Assembly (NCBI GenBank): GCA_022844135.1
Contig: JALHMG010000021.1
Location: forward strand, 1-64,000
DNA length: 64,000 bases
Direction: 5' to 3'
Source of the DNA: Lysobacterales bacterium
GTDB lineage: Bacteria; Pseudomonadota; Gammaproteobacteria; Xanthomonadales; SZUA-5
The position numbers were made by a program, and so were the translations under genes. Shown in pieces: positions 2,492-14,449 of the stretch (its first letter is position 1; each line of letters starts with the position of its first letter). The notes beneath the pieces were generated by a model that saw nothing but the letters and a program-made list of their open reading frames with translations, had not been told where the DNA came from and searched no databases.

Positions 2492-4606
2492 TCAAATACT
2501 GATCGAATTCGGTATCCGTGACGGTAGCTGGTACGGGTAGGGCATGGGCCGCTCGCGGTTGCGTTTGCGGATTTCGATTTCGATGAGTGCGAGGGCGTCT
2601 TGCAGGTCGGCGACGATGGGCTGTACGCGTGGGTCGGTGAAGTACGGATCGCGTGGGTTGTGCTCGTAACGGCCGAAGGTGTCGTACTGAACTTCGCTCA
2701 GCAGGAACTCGAAGGTTGCCCCGTACAGCGCGATGTCGAGCGGCGGGTACCAGGGCAGGCAGTCGTCGATGGTTTTGAGTTCTGTGCTGCGGGTGGGCGA
2801 GGCGCGATACAGGCTGCCGCCGACGCTGGGCACATAGGACATCAGCGGGTACTGCGCGTAGTTGACCGAGGCGTGGCGCGGGCCGGCGGTGTAGAGAATC
2901 AGGCTGACCATGTCGATCAGGTAATCCAGGCTCTCGATGCGCCACGGGCGCGCCGGATCGCCGCTGGCGACCAGTCCGCTCATGCCTTGAAATGCGCAGT
3001 ATTCCGGTGCGGTCAGCTCGTAGATGAAGCCTTGCAGCTCGATGTCATCGCGCACGTCTTGATCGTTCTTGTAGTAAACGCGTAAGTACGCGCCGACATA
3101 GTCGCGAATCGCTTTCCACAACAGCAGTGTGTCGTCGCGGAACGGGAACGCGGGCAGACGATCGACGCCGCGCAGCGCGAAGTCGTTCGCCGGGAAATGT
3201 TCGTCCCAGCGCCATGCGCGGTGCGCACGGGAGACCAGCTCCAAACTCGATTCGATGGCGATGCCGACATTGCACGCGACCACGCCGCCGGGCACGATGA
3301 GGCTGTGGATCGCATCGTCGTTGATATTGATGGTGAAGCGGAAATGCGGGATCAGCAGCTTGTAGAGCGGATGCAATTCGCTCAGTTGCCGATGCATCGC
3401 CACAATCATCGGCTCGACGATCAAATGGGTGTCGCCAAGGTGCGCCACTGCCTCATGCTGGATCGCAGCGCACACATTCATCGTGTACTTGGCGATGCGC
3501 CACTTCAGCAGATTGTGATCGTTGCCGCCGGCGCAGTTGTTGGGCGTATAGATTGGCGTCGCCTCCGCATCGAAGCGTTGGCCGAGCTGGATGGCGATGG
3601 GTTGTAGCGCGCCGCCCGGCGGATACCCTTGCGGTGGTTTGTCGTTCCAGTAAAACACCGCAATCGGCGCGGCGATATAGCGCTGCTCGCCGTGCAGGGC
3701 TTCTGTTTTGGCGTCGGCAAGGCAGGCAAAATCGACCACGTACAGCAAGCCGTCGCGCGTGGCGCTTTCCAGCGTCACCGTTGCATTGCCGCTGACGCTG
3801 CGCAAGATGGCGTCGGTCACCGGCATTTTTTGCAACAAATCCGGCAGCGCCAGCGCTTTCGATCCGGCACGGACTTCGGGCAACACGCCGAGCAATTGCG
3901 TGGTGTTGAATCCGCCGATTTGCAGAAAACCAAAAAACCAATCCTGCTCTGAAGGCTCGCCATCCGACGGCATCCATGGCTGGCGCGCGATCGTCAGCGC
4001 CTCCGGCTTGGGCATTTTCGGGAACAGCAGCTTGTAATCGCCGATGTCCTCCGGTTGCAGATACGCCCGGCCATGCGCGCCGTTGAGCAGATCGTAAGCG
4101 GTCGATTTCAGAATCGCCGTTGGGCCTTCGGCGAGGGTTTCTTTGAACAGCTTGTCGAGGCCGGTGATCATCGCCTCGATATCTTTGGGGATGTTCGACA
4201 GCGACTTGAGCGCCTCCGGCAGCTCCGCCAATGCCTTGAAGAAGGCTTTCATGTTCTTGATGTCGCGTACCGGATGGAGCGCACTAAACTCCTCGTCGAG
4301 CTTCTTCCACGCCGCTTCGATATCGGCGAAGGTCTGCGTCGGCAGATCGCCCTGCAGCTCGCGTTCCAGCAACATCTCGATCACGCACTTGAAGTTCTCG
4401 AGCATCGGTGCGAACACCTTGAGCACCTGCGCCTCGTAGTCGAGCGAAAACTTCTCGGCGCGCGGCAAATCGGCCGACATCGGCACCGAGTTCAAATAGC
4501 TCGTCATGTAGTTGTAGTTGGTGCGCGCCATCGACAACTGGAATGCGCGTGCCTGTCTGGCTTCGGGCGAGTCTTGTTGCGGTAGCGTGGGTGTGACGGT
4601 CGACAT
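2492..4606 (-). CDS. Lipoxygenase (non-heme iron dioxygenase)
   Basis: A 704-residue protein with a complete set of lipoxygenase iron ligands: His389 and His394 in HLGDTH (H-x4-H), then the family segment MHRQLSELHPLYKLLIPH, His578 and Asn582 in HASVN (H-x3-N), and a C-terminal Ile704 whose carboxylate is the fifth ligand. The family inserts dioxygen into polyunsaturated fatty acids to give hydroperoxides. No signal peptide is seen, unlike the secreted Pseudomonas enzyme, and the length matches a catalytic domain with an N-terminal helical extension. ATG at 4606 is preferred over an upstream in-frame start because AGGGGG sits 4-9 bases before it. It precedes no obvious partner; the MATE exporter upstream is on the same strand, 73 bases away. 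Confidence 0.93.
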   Translation of the reverse strand: MSTVTPTLPQQDSPEARQARAFQLSMARTNYNYMTSYLNSVPMSADLPRAEKFSLDYEAQVLKVFAPMLENFKCVIEMLLERELQGDLPTQTFADIEAAWKKLDEEFSALHPVRDIKNMKAFFKALAELPEALKSLSNIPKDIEAMITGLDKLFKETLAEGPTAILKSTAYDLLNGAHGRAYLQPEDIGDYKLLFPKMPKPEALTIARQPWMPSDGEPSEQDWFFGFLQIGGFNTTQLLGVLPEVRAGSKALALPDLLQKMPVTDAILRSVSGNATVTLESATRDGLLYVVDFACLADAKTEALHGEQRYIAAPIAVFYWNDKPPQGYPPGGALQPIAIQLGQRFDAEATPIYTPNNCAGGNDHNLLKWRIAKYTMNVCAAIQHEAVAHLGDTHLIVEPMIVAMHRQLSELHPLYKLLIPHFRFTININDDAIHSLIVPGGVVACNVGIAIESSLELVSRAHRAWRWDEHFPANDFALRGVDRLPAFPFRDDTLLLWKAIRDYVGAYLRVYYKNDQDVRDDIELQGFIYELTAPEYCAFQGMSGLVASGDPARPWRIESLDYLIDMVSLILYTAGPRHASVNYAQYPLMSYVPSVGGSLYRASPTRSTELKTIDDCLPWYPPLDIALYGATFEFLLSEVQYDTFGRYEHNPRDPYFTDPRVQPIVADLQDALALIEIEIRKRNRERPMPYPYQLPSRIPNSISI

Positions 4607-4678
4607 GAGTCCCCCTGGTTTGGACGTTGCGAACGCGCTGAACGCTAGCCGTTCAACCTTGCGTCCGCAATGCAAGCT

Positions 4679-6088
4679 TCAAACCTTGACGTTCTTCCAA
4701 CCGCCGCGACTGAACAGCCACAGCGTAAACAAACCGACGGCGGTCTCCGATACGAACACGCTCCAGAACACGCCGCTGTGCGCCCAGCCGAGCGGCACGG
4801 CGAGTGCGTACGCCAGCGGAATCTGGATCAGCCAGAAAAACACGAGGTTGATGTAAGTGGGCGTTACGGTATCGCCGGCGCCGTTGAAGGCCTGCACTGC
4901 GACCATCCACCAGCCGTAAACGAAGAACGAGAACGAGACGATCCAGAGCCACTCCCCGCCGATGGCGATCACGGCGGGGTCGTCGCTGAAGATGCCGATG
5001 ATCTGTTCGTGGAACACAAAGAACAGCACCGACGCGCTTAGCGTAAACACCATGTTGTACCAGCCGATTTGCCATACCGCAGCCTCGGCGCGATCCGGCC
5101 GATTGGCGCCCAGGTTTTGACCCACCAGCGTTGCCGCCGCGTTCGACAAGCCCCACGCCGGCATCAGCGTGAACATCAGAACACGCATGGCGATGGTCGC
5201 GCCGGCCACCGCGTCGCTGCCGACATTGGCCAGTACGCGCATCAGGAAAATCCACGCGCTGGTGGCGATGATCATCTGACCGATGCCGCCCAACGACGTG
5301 CGCACGATGTGCCAGATCGTGGCCAGATCCAGCGCCAGATTCCGTAAGTCGATAGCGATATGCTTGGCGCCACGGAACAGGATCCACAATTGCAGCAACA
5401 CGCCCACGCCGCGACCGATGTTGGTGGCGATCGCAGCGCCCTCGATGCCATAGGCCGGGATCGGGCCGAAGCCGAAAATCAGGATCGGGTCGAGAACGAT
5501 ATTCAAGCCGTTGGCCACCAGCAGCACGCGCATCGCCACCGCCGCATCGCCCGCGCCGCGAAAGATCGCGTTGATCACGAATAGCAGCATGATCACCACG
5601 TTGCCGCCGAGCATCCATTGCGTATAGCGATAACCGTGCTCGATGGCCCAATCGTCGGCACCCATCAAGCGCAGCACATCCTTAGCGTAGAACACGCCGA
5701 TCAAGGCAAACGGAATCGACGCCAGCACGCCAATCCAGATCGCCTGCATCGCGGTGCGCGCCGCGTCTTCGGGTTTTTGTTCGCCGATGCGCCGAGCAAT
5801 GATGGCCGTCACCGCCATCGCCACACCCATGGCAATCGAATAAAGCAGGTACAAGCAAGTTTCGGTGATGCCCACCGTGGCCACCGCCGAAGAACCCAGG
5901 CGCGCCACGAAATAGATATCGACCACCGCAAACAGCGACTCCAGCAGCAGCTCGATCATCATCGGCACTGCGAGCAGCAGCACCGCCCGCTGCAGCGGAA
6001 TCGTCGTGTAGTCGGCATTGGTGCCCGCGATCGCGCTCTTCAGATCGGCGAGCAGCGAGGGTCGCTCGTGGGCTGGGACGGACTCCAT
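4679..6088 (-). CDS. MATE family efflux transporter
   Basis: About 469 residues with some twelve hydrophobic segments arranged as two similar halves, typical of MATE (NorM/DinF-like) exporters that couple Na+ or H+ entry to drug or metabolite export across the inner membrane. Family-like stretches include AVPMMIELLLESLF near the N-terminus with the following VDIYFVARLG, and GLSNAAATLVGQNLGA opening the second half. The substrate cannot be read from sequence. ATG at 6088 (MESVPAHERP) is favoured over an in-frame ATG 14 codons earlier because the extra residues look unrelated to the family, though neither has a strong ribosome site. It lies upstream of, and on the same strand as, the lipoxygenase, so co-transcription is possible. 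Confidence 0.93.
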   Translation of the reverse strand: MESVPAHERPSLLADLKSAIAGTNADYTTIPLQRAVLLLAVPMMIELLLESLFAVVDIYFVARLGSSAVATVGITETCLYLLYSIAMGVAMAVTAIIARRIGEQKPEDAARTAMQAIWIGVLASIPFALIGVFYAKDVLRLMGADDWAIEHGYRYTQWMLGGNVVIMLLFVINAIFRGAGDAAVAMRVLLVANGLNIVLDPILIFGFGPIPAYGIEGAAIATNIGRGVGVLLQLWILFRGAKHIAIDLRNLALDLATIWHIVRTSLGGIGQMIIATSAWIFLMRVLANVGSDAVAGATIAMRVLMFTLMPAWGLSNAAATLVGQNLGANRPDRAEAAVWQIGWYNMVFTLSASVLFFVFHEQIIGIFSDDPAVIAIGGEWLWIVSFSFFVYGWWMVAVQAFNGAGDTVTPTYINLVFFWLIQIPLAYALAVPLGWAHSGVFWSVFVSETAVGLFTLWLFSRGGWKNVKV

Positions 6089-6269
6089 GGCGGCAAAGCT
6101 ACCGCAACTGACGAAGGCGTTGCACGCCAAAGCCGGTCACAACAGCGCTCTGATGCAGCGATAACTCGGCCCGCCATCCGCGCAGCGAAAAACCACGTCT
6201 TCGCTCCGCGGGCCTGCCCTGCTCTGGTGCCGGGCTAAAGTTTCCGCAGGGAACTTTGGCGCGAAGAAA

Positions 6270-6920
6270 CTAAAGCGCAACCCACAAAGCGGCAGCGTAC
6301 ACGATGCGATCCACACCATCGCTCCCCGCTTGCTCGTGGCGCGTGGTGTATAGCGCCTGAGATTTGTGTGGCAGGGTAGCGAGGCCTTGCGCATCGGCGG
6401 TGATGTTGGTGTCGCCCATTGTGAGCACTGCGCCGCCGAGCGGTTGGCCATTGAAGCGCACTTGCACTTGCAGTTGCCCATTGGCGGGCGCAGCTTGCGG
6501 CACGATCTCGAATTTGGCGCCGCTTGGCTTCAGTGCGCCCGGCCCAAAGGAATAGACCGACTTTCCATATTTGACGAAGTTGCGCACTTCGGTCGCAGTG
6601 GGGTGCTCGTTGCGCCCGCCCGGAATAAACTTTCCGGCTTCGGGCGTCTTCGCAAACAAGCCGTTGTCGAAGTCGACATCGATGACTGCCGCGCCGTCGG
6701 CCTTCACCACGCTCATGTCGTCGCGGCGCTCGATGCTGATGGGCAGAATCGCGCCGTTCGCGTCGATGGCCTGGGCGCCGCGCAGTTTGTCGGCCGGATA
6801 AGGCTCGTTATGGCCGGGGTGGCCATAGACCACCAGACCGCTCGCGTCGACGTAAACATCATGGGCGTGGACTTGGGCAGTGAGCGCGAATGCGGCGAGC
6901 ACGATGAGAAGACGTTTCAT
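6270..6920 (-). CDS. DUF4198 periplasmic protein (NikK/NikM-like)
   Basis: A 216-residue exported protein: signal peptide MKRLLIVLAAFALTAQVHA, then mature HDVYVDASG. The body fits DUF4198, a beta-rich family whose characterised relatives (NikM, NikK, CbiM-associated proteins) help nickel or cobalt uptake. The mature N-terminus starts with a histidine, and the protein ends in a hydrophobic stretch without a clear membrane anchor. AAGGA lies 9 bases before ATG 6920, which decides the start over longer upstream frames. It is the last gene of a minus-strand cluster with a TonB receptor, a one-helix periplasmic protein and a HupE-like permease, context that supports metal or metallophore handling. 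The exact ligand is inferred only. Confidence 0.72.
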   Translation of the reverse strand: MKRLLIVLAAFALTAQVHAHDVYVDASGLVVYGHPGHNEPYPADKLRGAQAIDANGAILPISIERRDDMSVVKADGAAVIDVDFDNGLFAKTPEAGKFIPGGRNEHPTATEVRNFVKYGKSVYSFGPGALKPSGAKFEIVPQAAPANGQLQVQVRFNGQPLGGAVLTMGDTNITADAQGLATLPHKSQALYTTRHEQAGSDGVDRIVYAAALWVAL

Positions 6921-7026
6921 GGTGGAATCCTTGGAGTGGTGAGGTTTTTCTGGGAACGCGTACCGATCCGGCGAAATACGGTCGGTGAAATCGAAGCGCC
7001 GAACGTGGCGAGGCGCGCAACGCGGT

Positions 7027-8961
7027 TTACAGCGGCACCGAAATGCCGATCTGCGCATCGAGAGACGGCAGTGGATCGAAGGCGTTCTGGCCGTTGATCA
7101 CGAACTGCGTTTCCGAGCGATCGTCGTAGGGGTTAAGCGTCAATTGCGCGAAAGCGCGGAAGCGAGCGAACTGTCGGCTCAGCTTGGCGGAGATCGAGGT
7201 CACCGGATCGCGCACGATGCTGCCGGATGCATTGAGCGGCGCGCGGCCGTAGCGCTGCGCGTATACGTCGAGCACGTAACTGTCTGGGCGCCACGTGATG
7301 CCCGCTACTTGCGAGTTCTGCGGCACGCCGGTCACTTCGCGCGCGGCACTCAATGTGACCAGTTCAGCGTCGACGCGCGAGGCGCCGAAGAACGCTTCGA
7401 GCCATTGTCCGCGCCAGCGCAACTCGCCCTCGATGCCATCGCGCGTGGTCGATCCCAGATTGGCGAACTCGCCCGGCGCCACCTGCACGAACTCGCCTGC
7501 GGTGTCGGTACGGTAGGCCGCCAGTTCAGCGCGAATGCCGTTGCCCCAATCGATGCGCACGCCCAGATCGGAGCTCTTGAGTTCGAACGGTTCCAGGTCT
7601 TGAAACCGCGCGCCGCGGTTGTCCGGCGAGAGTTCCACTTGCGAAGGCGAGCGTAAGCCGCGACCGCGATTGGCGTAGATCTCGATGCTGTCCGTCGGGC
7701 GCCAGGCCACTCCGAATTTCGGGCTGAGGAGATCGCCTTTGCCGCTGCCCGATGCGGTCGTATTGAAGCGATTGACGACCTCGCTATCGAACTGATCCCA
7801 ACGCAGGCCGAGCGTTGCCTTGAACGAATCGACAGGCGCCCATTGCGCTTCGGCATATAGGCTGGTCTGCGTCGTTTCCGCGTCGCGATCGGACGTCACG
7901 GCGCCGAGCACGCGGCGAACGCTGCGCCGGGCGAGGCGCTGGGTGTCGTCGAAGCGCAAGTCGATGCCGCCAGCGAACAGAATCGTCGACCAGCGATGCT
8001 CGATATCGGCACCAAAGCCGAAGGTGTTGCCTTCGGTGAACGTCACTGATTGACCTGCCCCGAAGTCGGCATAGCGCGAGCGTTCGTCTCGGATCGCGTA
8101 CAGGCGCGCTGCGACGTCCAGGTGATCTTCGAAGGTGCTGGCGTAGGTCAGGTAGGCTTGGGCGTGATCGACGTCGCCACCGTCGCTGGTGTTGATGGCT
8201 GCAGTGCGCGCGCGGCGGCCGGCGACGACATCTGCAACGGGCAAATAGCCCGGAGCGCCGAAACGGCGCGTATCGATTTGCGCCACGACGCTGAAGCGAT
8301 GTTCATCGCCGAAGCTGTGTTTGGCGAACAGTCCTGCGCGTTCGGAGAAAGCGTTGTCGCGAAAGCCGTCGGAAGTGAAGCCCTCGGCGATGACGAACGG
8401 TGCGCCGTTGCCATAGGAGGCCACGGCCTGGCCATAGCCAAAACGCCCGAGCGTAGCGTCGATCGCGCCGCCATTGAGGCTGCCTTTGGTGACGATATTC
8501 ACCGTGCCGCCGAGCGCAAAATTGCCGCTGCGCGCCGAGAACGGGCCTTTGGTGATTTCGACGCGTTCGATCATTTGCGGCAGCAGCCAGTTCAAATCCG
8601 CAAGACCGTGCGTGCGGCCGTTGACTTGATTGATCGGTACGCCATCGACGTAGACCGCCGCATCGACGCCATGGCCACCGGCAAAACCGCGCAGACCAAA
8701 ATCATCGCCGACGTCGCCTTGGTTGATATTGCGCACCACGAGCCCGGTGCTGGTGCGAAACAAATCCATCACATGGCCGATGTTCATCGCGGCAATGTCA
8801 TCGCTGTCGAGGATGACGGTGCCGGCCGGCAGTTGTTCCGCGTCGCGTCCGAGTGCGGTGCGATCCGGGCGCTCGCCGATCGCCTCAACCTGCGGCAGCG
8901 TCGTCAGATCGTGGGCGTGCACCGAGGCCGAAAGGCAGAAGAAAAGTAACCCGCGTTTCAT
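7027..8961 (-). CDS. TonB-dependent outer-membrane receptor
   Basis: A 644-residue receptor with signal peptide MKRGLLFFCLSASVHA, a plug domain (LPAGTVILDSDDIAAM through GGTVNIVTKG) and a long beta-barrel. The plug includes VYVDGVPINQ and VEITKGP, standard for receptors that take up metal chelates, cobalamin or similar scarce ligands using TonB energy. The sequence itself does not name the ligand; neighbours (DUF4198, HupE-like permease) suggest a metal. GGAGA lies 8 bases before ATG 8961, which makes this the start rather than the in-frame ATG at 8985. Open frame upstream to about 9400 is a decayed repeat and not part of the gene. The gap to the DUF4198 gene is 106 bases. Confidence 0.9.
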   Translation of the reverse strand: MKRGLLFFCLSASVHAHDLTTLPQVEAIGERPDRTALGRDAEQLPAGTVILDSDDIAAMNIGHVMDLFRTSTGLVVRNINQGDVGDDFGLRGFAGGHGVDAAVYVDGVPINQVNGRTHGLADLNWLLPQMIERVEITKGPFSARSGNFALGGTVNIVTKGSLNGGAIDATLGRFGYGQAVASYGNGAPFVIAEGFTSDGFRDNAFSERAGLFAKHSFGDEHRFSVVAQIDTRRFGAPGYLPVADVVAGRRARTAAINTSDGGDVDHAQAYLTYASTFEDHLDVAARLYAIRDERSRYADFGAGQSVTFTEGNTFGFGADIEHRWSTILFAGGIDLRFDDTQRLARRSVRRVLGAVTSDRDAETTQTSLYAEAQWAPVDSFKATLGLRWDQFDSEVVNRFNTTASGSGKGDLLSPKFGVAWRPTDSIEIYANRGRGLRSPSQVELSPDNRGARFQDLEPFELKSSDLGVRIDWGNGIRAELAAYRTDTAGEFVQVAPGEFANLGSTTRDGIEGELRWRGQWLEAFFGASRVDAELVTLSAAREVTGVPQNSQVAGITWRPDSYVLDVYAQRYGRAPLNASGSIVRDPVTSISAKLSRQFARFRAFAQLTLNPYDDRSETQFVINGQNAFDPLPSLDAQIGISVPL

Positions 8962-9001
8962 CAAAGGTCTCCGAGAGTGGCTCATTGGTTTAGCCTGAAA
9001 G

Positions 9002-9098
9002 TGACTCTTGTTCGCAGGAAGACACAGGACCTCTTCGTACCGAATAACGTCGTGTCTTCGTGCTTTGGTGTGAAATCTTTTTGTCGCGCCAGCGACTG
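9002..9098. repeat. Dispersed intergenic repeat (KARRHD type)
   Basis: On the minus strand this stretch reads in one frame as RFHTKARRHD followed by a charged tail, a signature seen in many bacterial intergenic repeats and often mis-annotated as part of a gene. Here it would extend the TonB receptor N-terminally. The core is AAAGCACGAAGACACGA on the minus strand. Known as a pattern; this copy's family was not verified. Confidence 0.4.
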
Positions 9099-9115
9099 CC
9101 GCCCCGCGCGCCCCG

Positions 9116-9571
9116 TCAGTGGGACGCGCCATGACGCGCCCGGCCGCGTACCGCCTGCACGATGTTTCCAAGTAACGATGCCGCCAGCAGCAACAGCAGC
9201 GCCGATTGCGGAATCGCCAACTGCGTGGCTTCGCCGCGTACCGTAGCGGCGCCATCGTCTGCAACCTGCACGGTCGCAGTGACCTCGTGTCCGAGCCCGT
9301 CGTCGATCTCGGCGCGCCACTCGCCCGGTGCTGCGGGGACGAAGGCCACGCGGCCGTCGCGGTCGGTGCGCGTGCGCAGCGCGATCGACTGATCCGGCGC
9401 ACGCACGATCACATCGGTATCGCCCATCGGCTCGCCGGTGGAGTAGCCAAAGCGCACCACGGTGGCCGCGATGGTCTCGCGCTGGAAGCCAGCCCCGTGG
9501 GCGAATGCATCGCTGCCGACGAGCGCCAGCGCCATCAGAACTGCACGTTGAAACTGCGCTCGATGAGCCAT
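9116..9571 (-). CDS. Small periplasmic protein with C-terminal anchor (NikL-like)
   Basis: A 151-residue protein: signal peptide MAHRAQFQRAVLMALALVGSDAFA, mature start HGAGFQRE, a beta-sandwich-like middle (GEPMGDTDVIVRAPD, TDRDGRVAFVPAAPGEWRAEI) and one transmembrane helix near the C-terminus (SALLLLLAASLLGNIVQAV). This layout, a carboxypeptidase-regulatory-like fold plus a single helix, is that of NikL-type accessory proteins of nickel/cobalt transporters. The gene overlaps the end of the HupE-like gene; an in-frame ATG at 9535 would give a TGATG junction, but ATG 9571 supplies the positively charged start of a normal signal peptide. The function is inferred from architecture and neighbours. 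Confidence 0.68.
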   Translation of the reverse strand: MAHRAQFQRAVLMALALVGSDAFAHGAGFQRETIAATVVRFGYSTGEPMGDTDVIVRAPDQSIALRTRTDRDGRVAFVPAAPGEWRAEIDDGLGHEVTATVQVADDGAATVRGEATQLAIPQSALLLLLAASLLGNIVQAVRGRARHGASH

Positions 9572-10638
9572 AGCAAAGCCACTCCGGCAATCAAAAGGGA
9601 TCCCGTGGTCAGCGCCATGCGATACAGCGCCCAACGTCGACAGAGGTACGCGATGGGGAGAAAAACGGATGCGGCGAGAACTTGCGCGCCCTCAACGCCG
9701 AGGTTGAATCCGAGCAGCGCCAGCAGCATCGAGGCGGTTGTCATTTCAAGCCCGGCGAGCACCGATGCGTAGCCCGCGCCGTGGATCAAGCCGAAGCCGA
9801 ATGCCACCGCCCAAAGCCGCTCGCCGCGCGCCAGCGGCAGCACGTTGTTCAACGCCGCGAACAGAATGGTTGCGGCTACCAGGGCCTCGACGAAGCGTAC
9901 CGGCAGGCGCATCCACTCCAGGCTCACGGCAGCCAGGCTGAGCGCGTGCGCGAGGGTGAATGCGGTAATGACCTTGACGACATCGACAAAGGCTCGCCAC
10001 GCCGAATCCGCCACTTCATAGCGGCCGGCGCGATAGCGAACGACCGCAGGCAGCAACAGGCAGCTCAAGAACAGCAGGTGATCCAGGCCCAGCCCGATGT
10101 GAAACACGCCCTGCCAGAAGAACGCCGCGAACGCCGCCATACCTTGCGGCGCTCCAGGCTCGATATGCGCGCGGCGCACCTCGCCGCTGAGGATCGCGCT
10201 GCGCTCGCCGCCGTGATCGATGCGCGCCAGCAGACGATGATCGGGATCGATGTCGACCAGCCAGTCATAGCGCAGATCGAGCGCTCCGCTGCGCGCGCAG
10301 ATGGCGCGAAACGGCAGTGCGAGATGCAGCCCATCGCCGTGCTCAACCAGCGCGATCGGAGCACCTTCGATGGCGCAGGGTTCGCCGTCCATCGCGATCG
10401 CCAGCGCTTGCGCCGGCAACGCGCGCAGCGCGGGCTCGATGGTGCGCGCCTCGCCCCAGGTGGCGACGCCATCGCTGTTGGCGTCCAGAGCGAGCATACG
10501 CTGCGCGTCGTCGATCGCGATGTCGAATCGACCTTCAATAGCTGTGCCTGCAACGTCGAGGTTGAGATAGGCCGTGCTGGACTGATGCGCCGACGCCGAG
10601 CTTGCGGCGAGAAGCGCGTATACGAACAGATGCCTCAT
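9535..10638 (-). CDS. HupE/UreJ-like membrane protein with EF-hand-like loop
   Basis: A 367-residue protein: signal peptide MRHLFVYALLAASSASA, a periplasmic domain of about 170 residues, then about six membrane helices. The helix region carries HIGLGLDHLLFL and GFGLIHGAGYA, the histidine/aspartate motifs of the HupE/UreJ family, some members of which transport nickel. The periplasmic domain contains a canonical calcium-type loop, DANSDGVATWGE (D-x-N-x-D-G-x5-E). ATG 10638 overlaps the stop of the upstream TPR gene as ATGA, so translation is probably coupled. Families of this extended type commonly sit beside DUF4331 and TPR genes, as here. The transported ion is not established. Confidence 0.82.
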   Translation of the reverse strand: MRHLFVYALLAASSASAHQSSTAYLNLDVAGTAIEGRFDIAIDDAQRMLALDANSDGVATWGEARTIEPALRALPAQALAIAMDGEPCAIEGAPIALVEHGDGLHLALPFRAICARSGALDLRYDWLVDIDPDHRLLARIDHGGERSAILSGEVRRAHIEPGAPQGMAAFAAFFWQGVFHIGLGLDHLLFLSCLLLPAVVRYRAGRYEVADSAWRAFVDVVKVITAFTLAHALSLAAVSLEWMRLPVRFVEALVAATILFAALNNVLPLARGERLWAVAFGFGLIHGAGYASVLAGLEMTTASMLLALLGFNLGVEGAQVLAASVFLPIAYLCRRWALYRMALTTGSLLIAGVALLWLIERSFNVQF

Positions 10639-11729
10639 CGCGCCAGCCGCCGTTGCAGAGGAACGTCGACAATGGCATTGGTTTCGAGCCACTCGCGCAC
10701 CGGCCCCAGCGCAGCCTCATCGCCTGCCAGGCGCGCTGCATCGACCAGCAACTCGGCGTCGATTGGCTCTTTTTGTTGCGCGAAGTTGATCTGCGCGGCG
10801 CGCAGTGCGCGCTGGCCGTCGTGTGCGATGTAGGTGAAGTAATAGGCGTCTTCGCGCGCGTGACCGGTGTCGTTGCGCAATGCCCGCGCTTCGATGCCGG
10901 ACTCAATTGTGCGCCGCAATTCGGCATACGCATGGCCGAGCGCTCGCTGTGCCCGGGCGCGCCGCAAGTCGGCGCCGTCGCCCGGTAGTGTTTGCAGCAC
11001 TTGGAGGGCCTCATCGGGTTTGTCGATCGCCAGCAGCGCATCGGCGTAGTTCAGAACTTGAACGGGTTTTCCGGTCTGCGCCGCATCGGCCAGCCGATCC
11101 AGGGCGTCCGGCTTGCCCAGACGCCACGCCAACTCGCCAGCCACACCGCGCGCAAAGTCGCCGACGGGCCCGGTACCCGGTGCCGTGTCGAGCATGTCGA
11201 CCAGCGCCGTATAGGCGGCATGGCCATGCCCGGTGCGAGCGCGCGGCAAGGCTGCACACGCAGCGACGCCGAGCGGCTCAACGCGTCCCAGCAGTGCCGC
11301 GCAGTCGCGCAGCGCCCCGGTGTAGTCGGCGCGCAGCGTGCGCAGCACCGAACGCACGAAATGCGCTTGAGCGGGGGCGTCCGGTGTCTTCAATAGCGCA
11401 TCGAGTTCCGCCAGCGCATCGTCGAAGCGATGCAGCCGCTGCAGTACGGTTGCATAGACCACTCGCAGCTCAGCATCGCCGCCCGCGCGGTGCGGCTTCA
11501 CTGCAGCCAATGCGTAATGCGCATAGGCCGGATCCTGGGTGGCTTCAGCGCGATCCAGCATGCGCCGTGCGTAGGCAATGGCGCCGTCGCGGTCAGCCAG
11601 CGTCCGCAGTTCTTGCAGCGCCTGCGGCGCCTCGCTGCTGACGTTGCCGAGCGGCATCGCATCGTCGCTGGGACGGAAAGGCATCGCGTTCAACGCGAGA
11701 GCGATGAGTGCTGCGGTGGCGGGGGGCAT
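10635..11729 (-). CDS. Tetratricopeptide-repeat protein
   Basis: About 364 residues rich in helix-turn-helix repeats of TPR type (for example AYAHYALAAV, RVVYATVLQRLHRFDDALAELDALL, NYADALLAIDKPDEALQVLQTL). A short hydrophobic N-terminus (PPATAALIALALNAMPF) may be a signal sequence, which would place it in the periplasm like its partners. TPR domains bind proteins; no enzymatic motif is visible. Its stop overlaps the HupE-like start (ATGA), and the DUF4331 gene is 73 bases upstream on the same strand, so the three probably form one transcript. ATG at 11729 is chosen because the upstream residues are Arg/Ala-rich and unlike a protein start; no strong ribosome site distinguishes it. Confidence 0.8.
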   Translation of the reverse strand: MPPATAALIALALNAMPFRPSDDAMPLGNVSSEAPQALQELRTLADRDGAIAYARRMLDRAEATQDPAYAHYALAAVKPHRAGGDAELRVVYATVLQRLHRFDDALAELDALLKTPDAPAQAHFVRSVLRTLRADYTGALRDCAALLGRVEPLGVAACAALPRARTGHGHAAYTALVDMLDTAPGTGPVGDFARGVAGELAWRLGKPDALDRLADAAQTGKPVQVLNYADALLAIDKPDEALQVLQTLPGDGADLRRARAQRALGHAYAELRRTIESGIEARALRNDTGHAREDAYYFTYIAHDGQRALRAAQINFAQQKEPIDAELLVDAARLAGDEAALGPVREWLETNAIVDVPLQRRLAR

Positions 11730-11802
11730 TGCGTTGGATTCGCTTGGTGACGAAGGCGAAGCGATGCGCTGCGCCGCGCGATGCGCGGCGCAGCGCAAGG
11801 CG

Positions 11803-13218
11803 TTAGTTGCGTGCGCCCGGTACTGGCGTGTTCAAGTACGGGAACGTGGTCCGGAACTGGCCGGCGTTGACAGTCGCGCCGTCGGTAATCGGCAACTGGC
11901 CGGCCGGTGCGACGTCGCTCGGCAACAGCGCGCCCATCGCTACGCGCAGTTCAATATCGACCACATCGTCGCCCGGACGACGGCCATTCGGGAAGCCCGC
12001 GGTATCGCCGCCCAATACGCCGAGATTGTTCTGCGCGGCCGCAGCCTTTGCCGCGATGCCCATGTTCAGGCGCAACATCTCCGATGCGGTCACACCCGGC
12101 GGTTGATTCAGACCCGAGACGCCGGTCAGGAACGCCGCTATCAGATCCGTGCGCGGGAACAAATTCGGCGCGGGCGCCGCAAAGAGGATTTCGATCAGTT
12201 CCGGCAGCGTGGGATTGGTCACGTACTGCGCGAACTGGCCGTCGTTGCGCGGCTCGGAGGCATTGAAGCGATCCTTGTCTGGAACGCCGATGACAACCTC
12301 GTTCACCAGCGGCGCGCCTAAGCGCGAGACCTGACGGAATGGTCGCTTGCCGGAGGTTCCGCCACTGCCCGCGTTGGTCAGCGCGAAGTCGCGGGAGGGC
12401 AGGCTGGCCGTGGTCCAGGCGCCGATGATGTCGGAATTACCGCGAACGCATGCGATCGGCACTTCGAGGATCAAACTGGTGACGTTCTTATCGGCGATGG
12501 TATTGGTTTCGCCGTTGACCGGGCCAAGCGGATTGGTATTGATCAGATCGAAGATCTCGCCCAGATTTACGCTGAAGGGATCGCGGCGCTGTCCGACGAA
12601 CACGCGACCTTCGCTGCACCCAGGGATGGCGATGCGCCAGATGTGGTTGTCCGCATACTGAGCATAGTTCGGCTGCGACTTGGTGCCGATGTAATCGAAG
12701 GGTTTGCGAAAGCGCGTGACGTTGGACATCGAGGCATTCTGTGCCAGCTGCGGATCGTTGAAATCGCGCTCGCCGCGAATCACACCCACGGTGTAGGTCT
12801 CGAGCAAATTCTTGACGTTGTCGTTGGCCTCCGGCGTCGTGCCGAATGCGCCGATGTTGATCAGCGGCACGGCCACCGGAACGCCATTGACCGGGATCTT
12901 CAAGTCCTGAGAGAAGTTCTGGAAGCGAAACTGGAAGGTCAAATCCTCGATGGCGTCGCCGTTGTTATCGACATGGATTTCGTACAGCGCATCCGGGTCC
13001 ATCGAAAAGTAGTTCGGTCCGCCGTAGGCGTCTTGCAGGGGCAGGTAGTTGGCGATAAAGGTCACGAAGCCGTCTCGGCCGGCTTCATAGCTACGAAACA
13101 TGTAGAAGTCGGTGGCATCGACTTTCGGTATTTCGGTGATGCCGGGGGCTTCGCGGTGGCTCGATGCAAAAGCGTGCGAACTCGCCGCGAGCGCGAGCAA
13201 CAGTAACGTGCGTTTCAT
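11803..13218 (-). CDS. Secreted DUF4331 protein
   Basis: A 471-residue exported protein with signal peptide MKRTLLLLALAASSHAFA and the DUF4331 start SSHREAPGITEIPKVDATDFYMF. It contains HVDNNGDAIEDLTFQF, an acidic D-x-N-x-D loop that could bind calcium, and several conserved asparagine/glycine turns. The family has no established function; it recurs beside TPR and HupE/UreJ-like genes, as in this cluster. GAGGA stands 7 bases before ATG 13218, which sets the start. It is the first gene of the cluster, so the promoter should lie between 13219 and 13432, where two hairpins are seen. No membrane segment other than the signal peptide. Confidence 0.88.
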   Translation of the reverse strand: MKRTLLLLALAASSHAFASSHREAPGITEIPKVDATDFYMFRSYEAGRDGFVTFIANYLPLQDAYGGPNYFSMDPDALYEIHVDNNGDAIEDLTFQFRFQNFSQDLKIPVNGVPVAVPLINIGAFGTTPEANDNVKNLLETYTVGVIRGERDFNDPQLAQNASMSNVTRFRKPFDYIGTKSQPNYAQYADNHIWRIAIPGCSEGRVFVGQRRDPFSVNLGEIFDLINTNPLGPVNGETNTIADKNVTSLILEVPIACVRGNSDIIGAWTTASLPSRDFALTNAGSGGTSGKRPFRQVSRLGAPLVNEVVIGVPDKDRFNASEPRNDGQFAQYVTNPTLPELIEILFAAPAPNLFPRTDLIAAFLTGVSGLNQPPGVTASEMLRLNMGIAAKAAAAQNNLGVLGGDTAGFPNGRRPGDDVVDIELRVAMGALLPSDVAPAGQLPITDGATVNAGQFRTTFPYLNTPVPGARN

Positions 13219-13244
13219 TGCGCATCCTCGATTGGGGTAAGGAC

Positions 13245-13287
13245 GCTGGCCCAAGGAGCCAGCAAACCGCGAATAGTCGCGATTTGC
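13245..13287. terminator. Two adjacent hairpins between gpsA and DUF4331
   Basis: GCTGGC/GCCAGC (13245-13250 with 13258-13263) is followed by an 11-base arm pair GCAAACCGCGA/TCGCGATTTGC (13262-13287, one mismatch, loop ATAG). They could end the secB-gpsA transcript or shape the leader of the DUF4331 transcript. Neither has a T-run. Confidence 0.35.
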
Positions 13288-13432
13288 TGCTGTTACGGTG
13301 CTACGACAGAAATTGGATGCGGCGCGAGGTGGACACCGATGTGCTGGAAGTAGCGCACGTATCCGAGGGCCGATTGCAATGGCTGACGACGTGGGCGCGC
13401 GCTGTGGGCGTTCCGATCGACAGCCGGGTCGA

Positions 13433-14449
13433 TCAGAATTTCAGTTCCGCCCCGTATTCAGGCTTTTGATCGCGCGCCAGGAGCGCGCGCAGACCGTCTG
13501 CCGGCGTCGTGTCGCCGTGCAATACCGCCCGAACGCGCGAGGCGATCGGCAGATCGAGATCGAAGCGCTCGGCCAGGCGCATCACCTCATCGGCGGTCTG
13601 TACGCTCTCTACCACCTGTCCGATGTCGGCTACTGCTTGCGCCAGTGGCGTGCCGCGACCCAGCGCCAAGCCGAGGCGCCGATTGCGCGACAGGTCCCCG
13701 GTACAGGTGAGCACCAGATCGCCAAGTCCGGCCAGCCCGATGATGGTTTCGGCGCGCCCACCCAATGGCTTATTGAGGCGCAGCATTTCGTTCAAGCCGC
13801 GCGTGATCAATCCGGCGCGCGCATTGAGGCCCAAGCCCATGCCATCGGCAATGCCGGTGGCAACCGCAAGCACGTTCTTCATCGCGCCGCCCAACTCGGC
13901 GCCGCGGATATCGTTGCCGGTGTAGGCGCGGAACTGCGGGCCGTGAAGAGCCTTGGCGACCGTATTGGCGAAAGCGTCGTTGTCCGAATGCACGGTCACC
14001 GCGCTTGGCATGCCGAGCGCCACTTCTTTGGCGAAACTGGGGCCGGTGATGACGGCTTTCGGCAGCGCCGTGCCGAATATGCGATCGGCCACCTCGTGCA
14101 GGAAATCTCCAGAGCCGGGCTCGAAGCCCTTGCTCGCCCATGCCAGCCCCGCCGGCATGCCGATGTCGCGCATGGATCGCAACGTCTCGGCGAAGGCGTG
14201 GCTTGGCACCACCACCAGCACCCAGTCGGCGTCGGTCAACGTGGCGCGCAAGTCGGTGCTGTAAATCATGTCGCCGGGCAGATCGATGCCAGGCAGATAA
14301 CGCTCGTTGCGCCAGCTCGTTCCGGAACGCGTGAGGCCGTCTTCGCGACGGCCCCACAGTTTGACTTTCGCTTCGCCGCGCGCCAACAAACTGGCCAGAG
14401 CTGTGCCCCAGGATCCTGCACCAAGCACTGCAATGGTGGACACGGCCAT
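13433..14449 (-). CDS. gpsA: Glycerol-3-phosphate dehydrogenase [NAD(P)+]
   Basis: A 338-residue cytoplasmic enzyme that reduces dihydroxyacetone phosphate to sn-glycerol 3-phosphate for phospholipid synthesis. The N-terminal Rossmann motif is [10 protein letters not shown] (10-19), followed by the family segments [26 protein letters not shown] and a catalytic Lys region [20 protein letters not shown]. The C-terminal helical domain contains [14 protein letters not shown] and [12 protein letters not shown]. The length fits GpsA. It lies 7 bases downstream of secB on the same strand, a conserved gammaproteobacterial arrangement that implies one transcript. Confidence 0.97.

Follow-up and report, generated by a model that had tools for sequence, protein, structure and literature searches.

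A six-gene envelope locus of a Lysobacterales bacterium that looks like a metal-acquisition system around an EF-hand anglerase-type permease

Anglerase permeases, in which an Ang-1 domain is joined to a HupE/UreJ-2 permease, are the closest described relatives of the locus considered here. According to the main text of PMC12537917 (structure 9gce), they carry a signal peptide, a predicted mature N-terminal histidine (His1) and a beta-sandwich Ang-1 domain with a PF13795 permease, and some of their loci encode a DUF4198 protein nearby. The same text describes HupE-type proteins as nickel permeases, proposes that the permease is fed, and has the Ang-1 metal held by His1 and Asn41, with three helices in the segment between strands 2 and 3. 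Since it reports binding of Ni2+ by a DUF4198 protein (dissociation constant 18 nM) and tighter binding of Cu2+ (74 nM) than of Ni2+ (220 nM) by an Ang-1 domain, the component proteins allow both metals. Passages of PMC7190382 and PMC11870441 also report DUF4198 with iron-limited receptors or iron-responsive operons. Here, we analyzed a stretch of 64,000 nucleotides from a Lysobacterales bacterium (contig JALHMG010000021.1, positions 1 to 64,000; hereafter the window), in which six adjacent genes resemble a single envelope system for capturing a metal ion (probably copper or nickel) and delivering it to a permease in the membrane.

All six genes were confirmed on the minus strand from 13218 to 6270, between gpsA (13433-14449) and the gene of a MATE-family transporter. 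From 5' to 3', they encode a DUF4331 protein, a TPR-like protein, a HupE_UreJ_2 permease, a NikL-like protein, a TonB-dependent receptor and a DUF4198 protein:

11803-13218, minus strand: DUF4331 protein, exported, predicted mature N-terminus SSHREAP (X-X-His); PF14224, E 1e-141
13156-13164, minus strand: codons Ser-Ser-His, predicted mature N-terminus of DUF4331 of the amino-terminal Cu(II)- and Ni(II)-binding (ATCUN) type (His21); from conservation and a cleavage rule
10635-11729, minus strand: TPR-like exported protein; weak TPR/HEAT matches, none over the cut-off; homologue in 75 of the 80 named HupE loci defined below
9535-10638, minus strand: Ang-1-type domain fused to a HupE_UreJ_2 permease; PF13795, E 2e-38; AlphaFold2 model; match to 9gce
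10585-10587, minus strand: His18 codon, for the residue predicted to be His1 of the mature Ang domain; no variation among 32 aligned HupE proteins, and opposite residue 1 of 9gce
10450-10485, minus strand: predicted EF-hand loop of the Ang domain, DANSDGVATWGE; 77 of 85 homologues show the pattern; EF-hand matches in the PDB
9116-9571, minus strand: NikL-like exported protein with one helix; a His follows the signal peptide (AFA|HGAG, by eye); NF058648, 42 bits
7027-8961, minus strand: TonB-dependent receptor, predicted mature His1 (VHA|HDL); PF00593, 9e-33, and PF07715, 1e-17; cleavage heuristic
6270-6920, minus strand: DUF4198 protein, predicted mature His1 (VHA|HDVYV); PF10670, 41.1 bits; cleavage heuristic
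13261-13288, no strand: palindrome or hairpin AGCAAAyCGcG-N6-CGCGrTTTGCT in the interval from gpsA to DUF4331, which may be an operator or a leader hairpin; genome search and RNA fold

The TPR stop and the HupE start overlap by 4 bp (ATGA, 10635-10638) and the HupE and NikL-like genes by 37 bp, while gaps of 73, 154 and 106 bp separate DUF4331 from TPR and precede the receptor and DUF4198, respectively. This layout bears out a first-pass annotation, made from the letters of the window, which had described a one-direction unit of metal-type envelope proteins with ATGA and nested overlaps. A genome of the same genus (G001, hereafter the congener) has the identical six-gene set and order, at 61-87% identity.

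Unlike the anglerase permeases of PMC12537917, whose main text contains no mention of EF-hand, calcium, Ca2+, TPR, tetratricopeptide or DUF4331, the window permease has an EF-hand loop, with TPR and DUF4331 as its coupled partners. The beta-sandwich of its Ang domain is also that of the periplasmic zinc proteins ZrgA (8f1b) and PA4063 (7amx), but the matched chains (8f1b_F and 7amx) are 135 and 140 residues long, have no permease and share 12-13% identity with it. NikKLMQO-type nickel/cobalt energy-coupling factor transporters have in common with the locus a NikL-like protein and DUF4198, which we take to be NikK-like; however, the window's NikL-like protein reaches 42 bits against a cut-off of 100, the S component CbiM/NikM was not found in the genome, and the permease is a HupE_UreJ_2 instead. 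The kinship with DUF4198, NikL and HupE proteins claimed in the first-pass annotation is supported, more faintly for NikL, and so, by the lack of the S component, is its inference of a pathway without an energy-coupling factor ATPase. Finally, the DUF4331 protein matches the whole profile of PF14224, a family without an assigned function.

We surveyed the recurrence of these genes with a genome scan queried with five aligned HupE proteins, all from DUF4331-linked loci and headed by that of the window. The best 80 of 586 confirmed relatives, hence the nearest ones and not a random sample, are the named loci. The window and four relatives (L031, L036, L037 and L038), all chosen for DUF4331, are added in a set of 85, and eleven loci from a separate sample in a set of 96. 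By profile counts, a TPR homologue was present in 75 of the 80 named loci and DUF4331 in 37, all 37 also with TPR; 8 of the 43 loci without DUF4331 in the 85-locus set lie too near a contig end to show it. DUF4331, TPR and HupE occurred together in 48 of the 96 loci, of which 44 had the window order, two were reversed and two had DUF4331 on the opposite strand; the reversed loci suggest that the three genes keep together through rearrangement. A start codon allowing the 4-bp TPR-HupE overlap was found in 74 of the 86 loci scored (three of the 89 with a TPR hit were not scorable). Mantel correlations of protein distances were 0.88 for HupE-TPR and 0.41 for HupE-DUF4331, with 0 of 999 permutations as high. 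By record title, and with many metagenome-assembled genomes among them, the carriers of all three genes are beta- and gammaproteobacteria, Nitrospira/Nitrospirales, a cyanobacterium, Melainabacteria and a ‘deltaproteobacterium’. The labels TPR and NikL are soft for the window proteins: the Pfam matches of the TPR-like protein are all below cut-off (HEAT_2, E 6.6e-4; TPR_19, 0.0093; TPR_16, 0.013), its homologue in L038 passes TPR_16, and the protein between DUF4331 and HupE in L036 was missed by the TPR profile and not called TPR by Pfam.

The permease itself ties the locus to the anglerases. Its C-terminal part passes PF13795 with 131.9 bits (cut-off 24.5), and its AlphaFold2 model (predicted local distance difference test, pLDDT, 88.5) matched the Cu-bound Ang-1 domain 9gce with Z 11.5 (root-mean-square deviation 2.9 over 128 residues; Foldseek E 1.3e-4), a structure found through fold comparison only and not by sequence searches. 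Residue 18 of the model is aligned opposite residue 1 of 9gce, although residues 13-18 have a pLDDT below 50, so that the His site is not well modelled. His18 follows Ala-Ser-Ala, is invariant in 32 of 32 aligned HupE proteins and is the predicted mature His1, the usual predicted start being HKPSDSYL. A cleavage heuristic applied to 108 HupE proteins gave His1 in 62 of the 77 with a site; in a control with other exported-like open reading frames, 13 of 182 had a His at any of residues 1 to 3.

The loop DANSDGVATWGE in the Ang domain has 12 residues, with ligands at positions 1, 3, 5 and 12 plus Gly6, and its pattern is present in 77 of the 85 HupE proteins. A profile of 13 Ang domains matched EF-hand proteins in the PDB, with a best whole-sequence E of 7e-5 (2jnx; several repeats summed) and, among the three alignments shown, a best single stretch with an independent E of 0.08 (2b1u). 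Because of this recurrence and these matches, the loop, which the first-pass annotation had called EF-hand-like, is more than chance, and we regard it as a predicted Ca2+ site. It covers mature residues 35-46, which by residue number alone lie inside the segment between strands 2 and 3 of Ang-1. As a specificity control, we examined 120 genomes of one order, in which 12 had a strong window-type HupE (> 350 bits) and 22 places had weaker HupE_UreJ_2 matches; apart from G062, which is L066 of the named set, the strong loci (11) were compared with the nine best of the weaker ones. TPR was found at 10 of 11 strong loci, DUF4331 at 7 of 11 and the EF-hand pattern in 9 of 11, whereas none of the three was found in the nine others. 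Since all three track the strong loci, the EF-hand permease, TPR and DUF4331 go together, and the EF-hand loop marks a TPR/DUF4331-linked HupE subfamily.

The DUF4331 protein passes PF14224 with 473.5 bits over profile positions 1-421. Its AlphaFold2 model (pLDDT 81.8; predicted template modelling score 0.85; residues 1-21 below 50) had no Foldseek match at E 0.001, and its best Z in VIA-align was 5.8, with nearly all rows listed being antibody chains apart from 2ivf_C (ethylbenzene dehydrogenase, Z 5.5); no PDB sequence relative was found up to E 10. These negatives do not exclude a known fold. What is conserved is the predicted N-terminus: His21 is invariant in 31 aligned proteins. We applied the -3/-1 rule to the His of the HREAP motif in 40 readable linked proteins, leaving out L073 (twice), L038, the second piece of L081 and L098, which had no readable start or weak scores. 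This His was compatible as mature residue 3 in 39 of 40; with Ala required at -1, it was residue 3 in 36, residue 2 in three and residue 1 in none. The preceding residues vary (SSH in 24, ASH in seven, ANH in six, ADH in two, and GTH in one, L124, probably read in the wrong upstream frame) and the spacing is constant. DUF4331 proteins from stretches without HupE, some of them very distant (48-676 bits), had an A|X-X-H start in 14 of 14. Among DUF4331 proteins, the cleavage heuristic used for HupE placed His at residue 3 in 44 of the 56 with a site and found no site in six. A free N-terminus of the form X-X-His constitutes the ATCUN motif, and the mature DUF4331 protein may start with one of this type. 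The pairing of DUF4331 with the permease seems unreported, since no paper mentioning DUF4331 or PF14224 was found in a search that reached few subscription papers.

Three further observations concern this family. Residues 84-92 of the window protein, DNNGDAxED, resemble a calcium-type loop, with D84 and N85 nearly invariant in the alignment. A second DUF4331 protein, about 63% identical, is encoded in the window genome (L033, G000:C8, 8718-10217) and had no HupE or TPR match in the 20 kb examined. In L034 (9625-16376), L039 (6054-12600) and L040 (3165-9724), DUF4331 occurs without HupE but with a recurring receptor family and genes for an extracytoplasmic function (ECF) sigma factor and an anti-sigma factor, and in L034 also with DUF4198.

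The other three genes are less constant. The NikL-like protein, below cut-off for NF058648 (42 of 100 bits) and for PF13620, has relatives adjoining HupE in L031 and in L090 (Algiphilus, NikL-like gene after HupE), and its gene was detected at a minimum of one of the 80 named loci. One TonB-receptor family occurs in 17 of the 80 named loci, on the permease strand in 14; its co-occurrence with DUF4331 was not significant (11 of 37 loci with DUF4331 vs 6 of 43 without, p 0.10). The family also stands beside three HupE-less DUF4331 loci, and many members have the plug motif VTQHSGxGKANQYFLRG. As to the receptor substrate, no NCBIfam model listed reached its cut-off with the window receptor or with six members of this family, of which four came from named loci and two from DUF4331 loci without HupE. 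DUF4198, which passes PF10670 (41.1 bits; cut-off 34), lies beside the permease in the window, the congener and three of the 80 named loci (Pfam-confirmed), and beside DUF4331 in the HupE-less L034, from a family elsewhere in the order; a second profile with Pfam gave matches in L034, L075, L099 and L127, and all these counts are minimum values. In the verrucomicrobial L127 (6911-8979), the DUF4198 gene is directly upstream of HupE on the same strand, which pairs the two families directly; at that locus, TPR and the EF-hand pattern were both missing. The receptor and DUF4198, whose constant absence from homologous clusters the first-pass annotation had named as the sign of a wrong reading, are thus found in such clusters. 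Its emphasis was nevertheless misplaced, as DUF4331 and TPR, whose roles it called unknown, are the permease's commonest partners. The best reading is that TPR is the near-constant partner of the permease and DUF4331 a frequent periplasmic partner, whereas the receptor, the NikL-like protein and DUF4198 are optional outer parts.

From these components, we infer metal binding and inward transfer, and we give about an even chance to the locus being a trans-envelope module for transition-metal acquisition around an EF-hand anglerase permease. The TonB receptor would carry a metal or metal chelate across the outer membrane. Periplasmic proteins with metal-ligand mature N-termini could then hold the metal, DUF4198 and the NikL-like protein via His1 and DUF4331 via its ATCUN-type X-X-His, and the TPR protein, putatively coupled to the permease in translation, may link DUF4331 to the permease as a scaffold or docking partner. 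In HupE, the Ang domain would accept the metal via its own His1 and pass it into the permease, and the EF-hand loop may be a Ca2+ site that stabilises or gates the Ang domain. A bolder version, in which DUF4331 is a family-wide ATCUN metallochaperone and the DUF4331-TPR-EF-hand permease unit is a widespread unrecognised relay from X-X-His to His1 to a Ca2+-gated permease, under ECF control in many species, strikes us as rather doubtful.

Several points weigh against the acquisition module. Roughly every second TPR-HupE pair lacks a neighbouring DUF4331, and, because the named loci are the best-scoring ones and the query came from DUF4331-linked loci, 37 of 80 may overstate its frequency beside HupE. 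The receptor, NikL-like and DUF4198 genes are present in a minority of loci only, and the window receptor is a distant stand-in for the recurring family, as it scores 186 bits on that family's profile, on which 16 of the 17 reach 838-1163 and L086, matched as a fragment, 164. The Ang-1 fold is common to the zinc proteins ZrgA (Z 11.6 with the HupE Ang domain) and PA4063 (Z 10.2). The cleavage heuristic found no site in 31 of the 108 HupE proteins, overran on the window HupE and gave no site on the window NikL-like protein, so that the last two sites were read by eye. For DUF4331, a laxer rule with Ser or Gly at -1 lets His fit as mature residue 1 in 31 of 40, for the SSH and ASH forms; because there was no significant structural match and the modelled N-terminus is of low confidence, the N-terminal motif is the sole pointer to a metal role.

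Regarding the metal, the first-pass annotation had proposed a nickel/cobalt-type uptake pathway. Of this, the envelope unit and the protein kinship are supported, and a receptor does recur; nickel or cobalt as the substrate is not supported in the window species. We searched the window genome (G000) and four related carriers (G001, G004, G011 and G018). None had a credible urease (G000, a partial match of 23.5 bits against a cut-off of 23, E 2e-4, 48 of 121 positions; G018, 22.3 bits, E 5e-4, below cut-off), NiFe hydrogenase, CbiC or NikR; CbiM/NikM (PF01891) was found in 0 of 5, with three control genomes positive, and nickel superoxide dismutase in none, which is weak evidence as the control genomes were silent too. 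Nickel or cobalt therefore has no obvious user in the window species. The co-occurrence with nickel enzymes recommended as a check in the first-pass annotation is nonetheless seen elsewhere: urease was present in 14 of 16 strain-titled genomes chosen from the 80 permease loci and, in the order of the control, in 9 of 12 window-type carriers vs 39 of 108 other genomes (Fisher p 0.013, genome size and descent uncorrected). Genomes with only other HupE_UreJ_2 types have the same 9 of 12 (any HupE, 18 of 24 vs 30 of 96), so the urease link is not special to the EF-hand subfamily, and it may follow genome size and shared descent. Strict nickel or cobalt uptake that serves nickel enzymes or cobalamin, which these urease counts, the DUF4198 and NikL kinship and the Ni2+ binding of a DUF4198 protein (main text of PMC12537917) favour, is in our view improbable given the missing enzymes, NikR and CbiM/NikM and the equal urease share of other permease types. 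We infer a metal of the Cu2+ or Ni2+ class; in the window species, copper is no less likely than nickel.

The regulatory neighbourhood admits another explanation, in which DUF4331-TPR-HupE is induced under redox stress by an ECF sigma factor, paired with an anti-sigma factor of the ChrR-cupin or RskA type, to sequester copper or another metal, for buffering or detoxification instead of acquisition. Unbiased clustering of neighbour genes gave an ECF sigma family in 16 loci, 16 of 16 with DUF4331. By profile, it was found in 17 of 37 DUF4331-bearing named loci vs 1 of 43 without (p 4e-6, inflated by related loci, which are uncorrected; the ten proteins behind the profile came from DUF4331-bearing loci) and in 5 of 13 HupE-less DUF4331 loci; the lone match without DUF4331, L078, is a stretch cut off just before its HupE. 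Ten anti-sigma candidates comprise seven ChrR cupins (PF12973) and three RskA_C proteins (PF10099), and the use of two anti-sigma kinds by similar operons suggests repeated recruitment. This link is equally compatible with a stress response and with uptake, which is a further point against the acquisition module. However, the first 20 kb of the window and the 20 kb of the congener gave no ECF match, the main text of PMC12537917 describes HupE-type proteins as nickel permeases, and a receptor points inward; we therefore hold detoxification to be unlikely.

For regulator sites, the first-pass annotation had pointed to the interval 13219-13432. A near-perfect palindrome at 13261-13288, 43-70 bases before DUF4331, does lie there; it is the single such place in the genome and has the same position in the congener, and its RNA fold gave z of -3.8 and -4.2. 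Among relatives, one place with two mismatches was found in G002 and none in 18 others, and as a regulator motif the palindrome is a lead only. No Rfam match reached the gathering score across the whole window, and between 6000 and 13600 we found no sigma-70 promoter (1.1 expected by chance) and one terminator-like site (6.8 expected).

The six genes might also be two adjacent modules, with DUF4331-TPR-HupE as one unit and the NikL-like, receptor and DUF4198 genes as a separate unit joined in this genus. The rarity of the NikL-like and DUF4198 genes among the named loci (1 and 3 of 80, minimum values) and the gaps of 154 and 106 bp are in keeping with such a split, but the 37-bp overlap of HupE with the NikL-like gene, the NikL-like gene that also follows HupE in Algiphilus (L090), and the recurrence of DUF4331 with DUF4198 and a receptor in another family of the order (L034) run counter to it, and we rate it as having a small chance. 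A calcium or lanthanide system with the EF-hand as the substrate site is very improbable: the pattern is indeed found in 77 of 85 permeases and two named loci (L106 and L126) are titled Methylomonas, which are methylotrophs, but nearly all loops shown lack the Pro2 that we take lanmodulin EF-hand loops to carry (L090 has it), and the invariant His1 would be an unusual ligand for hard ions.

Around the cluster, the MATE-family transporter gene downstream (4679-6130) was dropped from it because BLAST gave no counterpart within the 20 kb of the congener. The window also encodes a bacterial lipoxygenase at 2492-4609, two genes downstream of the cluster (PF00305, E 4e-48), and a GmrSD-type restriction enzyme at 233-1948 (PF03235 and PF07510).

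With these results, the exported DUF4331 family gains partners and a testable chemical feature, its conserved predicted X-X-His N-terminus, and the newly described anglerase permeases gain an EF-hand and two partner proteins. A recurring three-gene unit is thereby named in several phyla. If the acquisition reading is true, it would imply that metals are relayed by way of the free N-termini of proteins.

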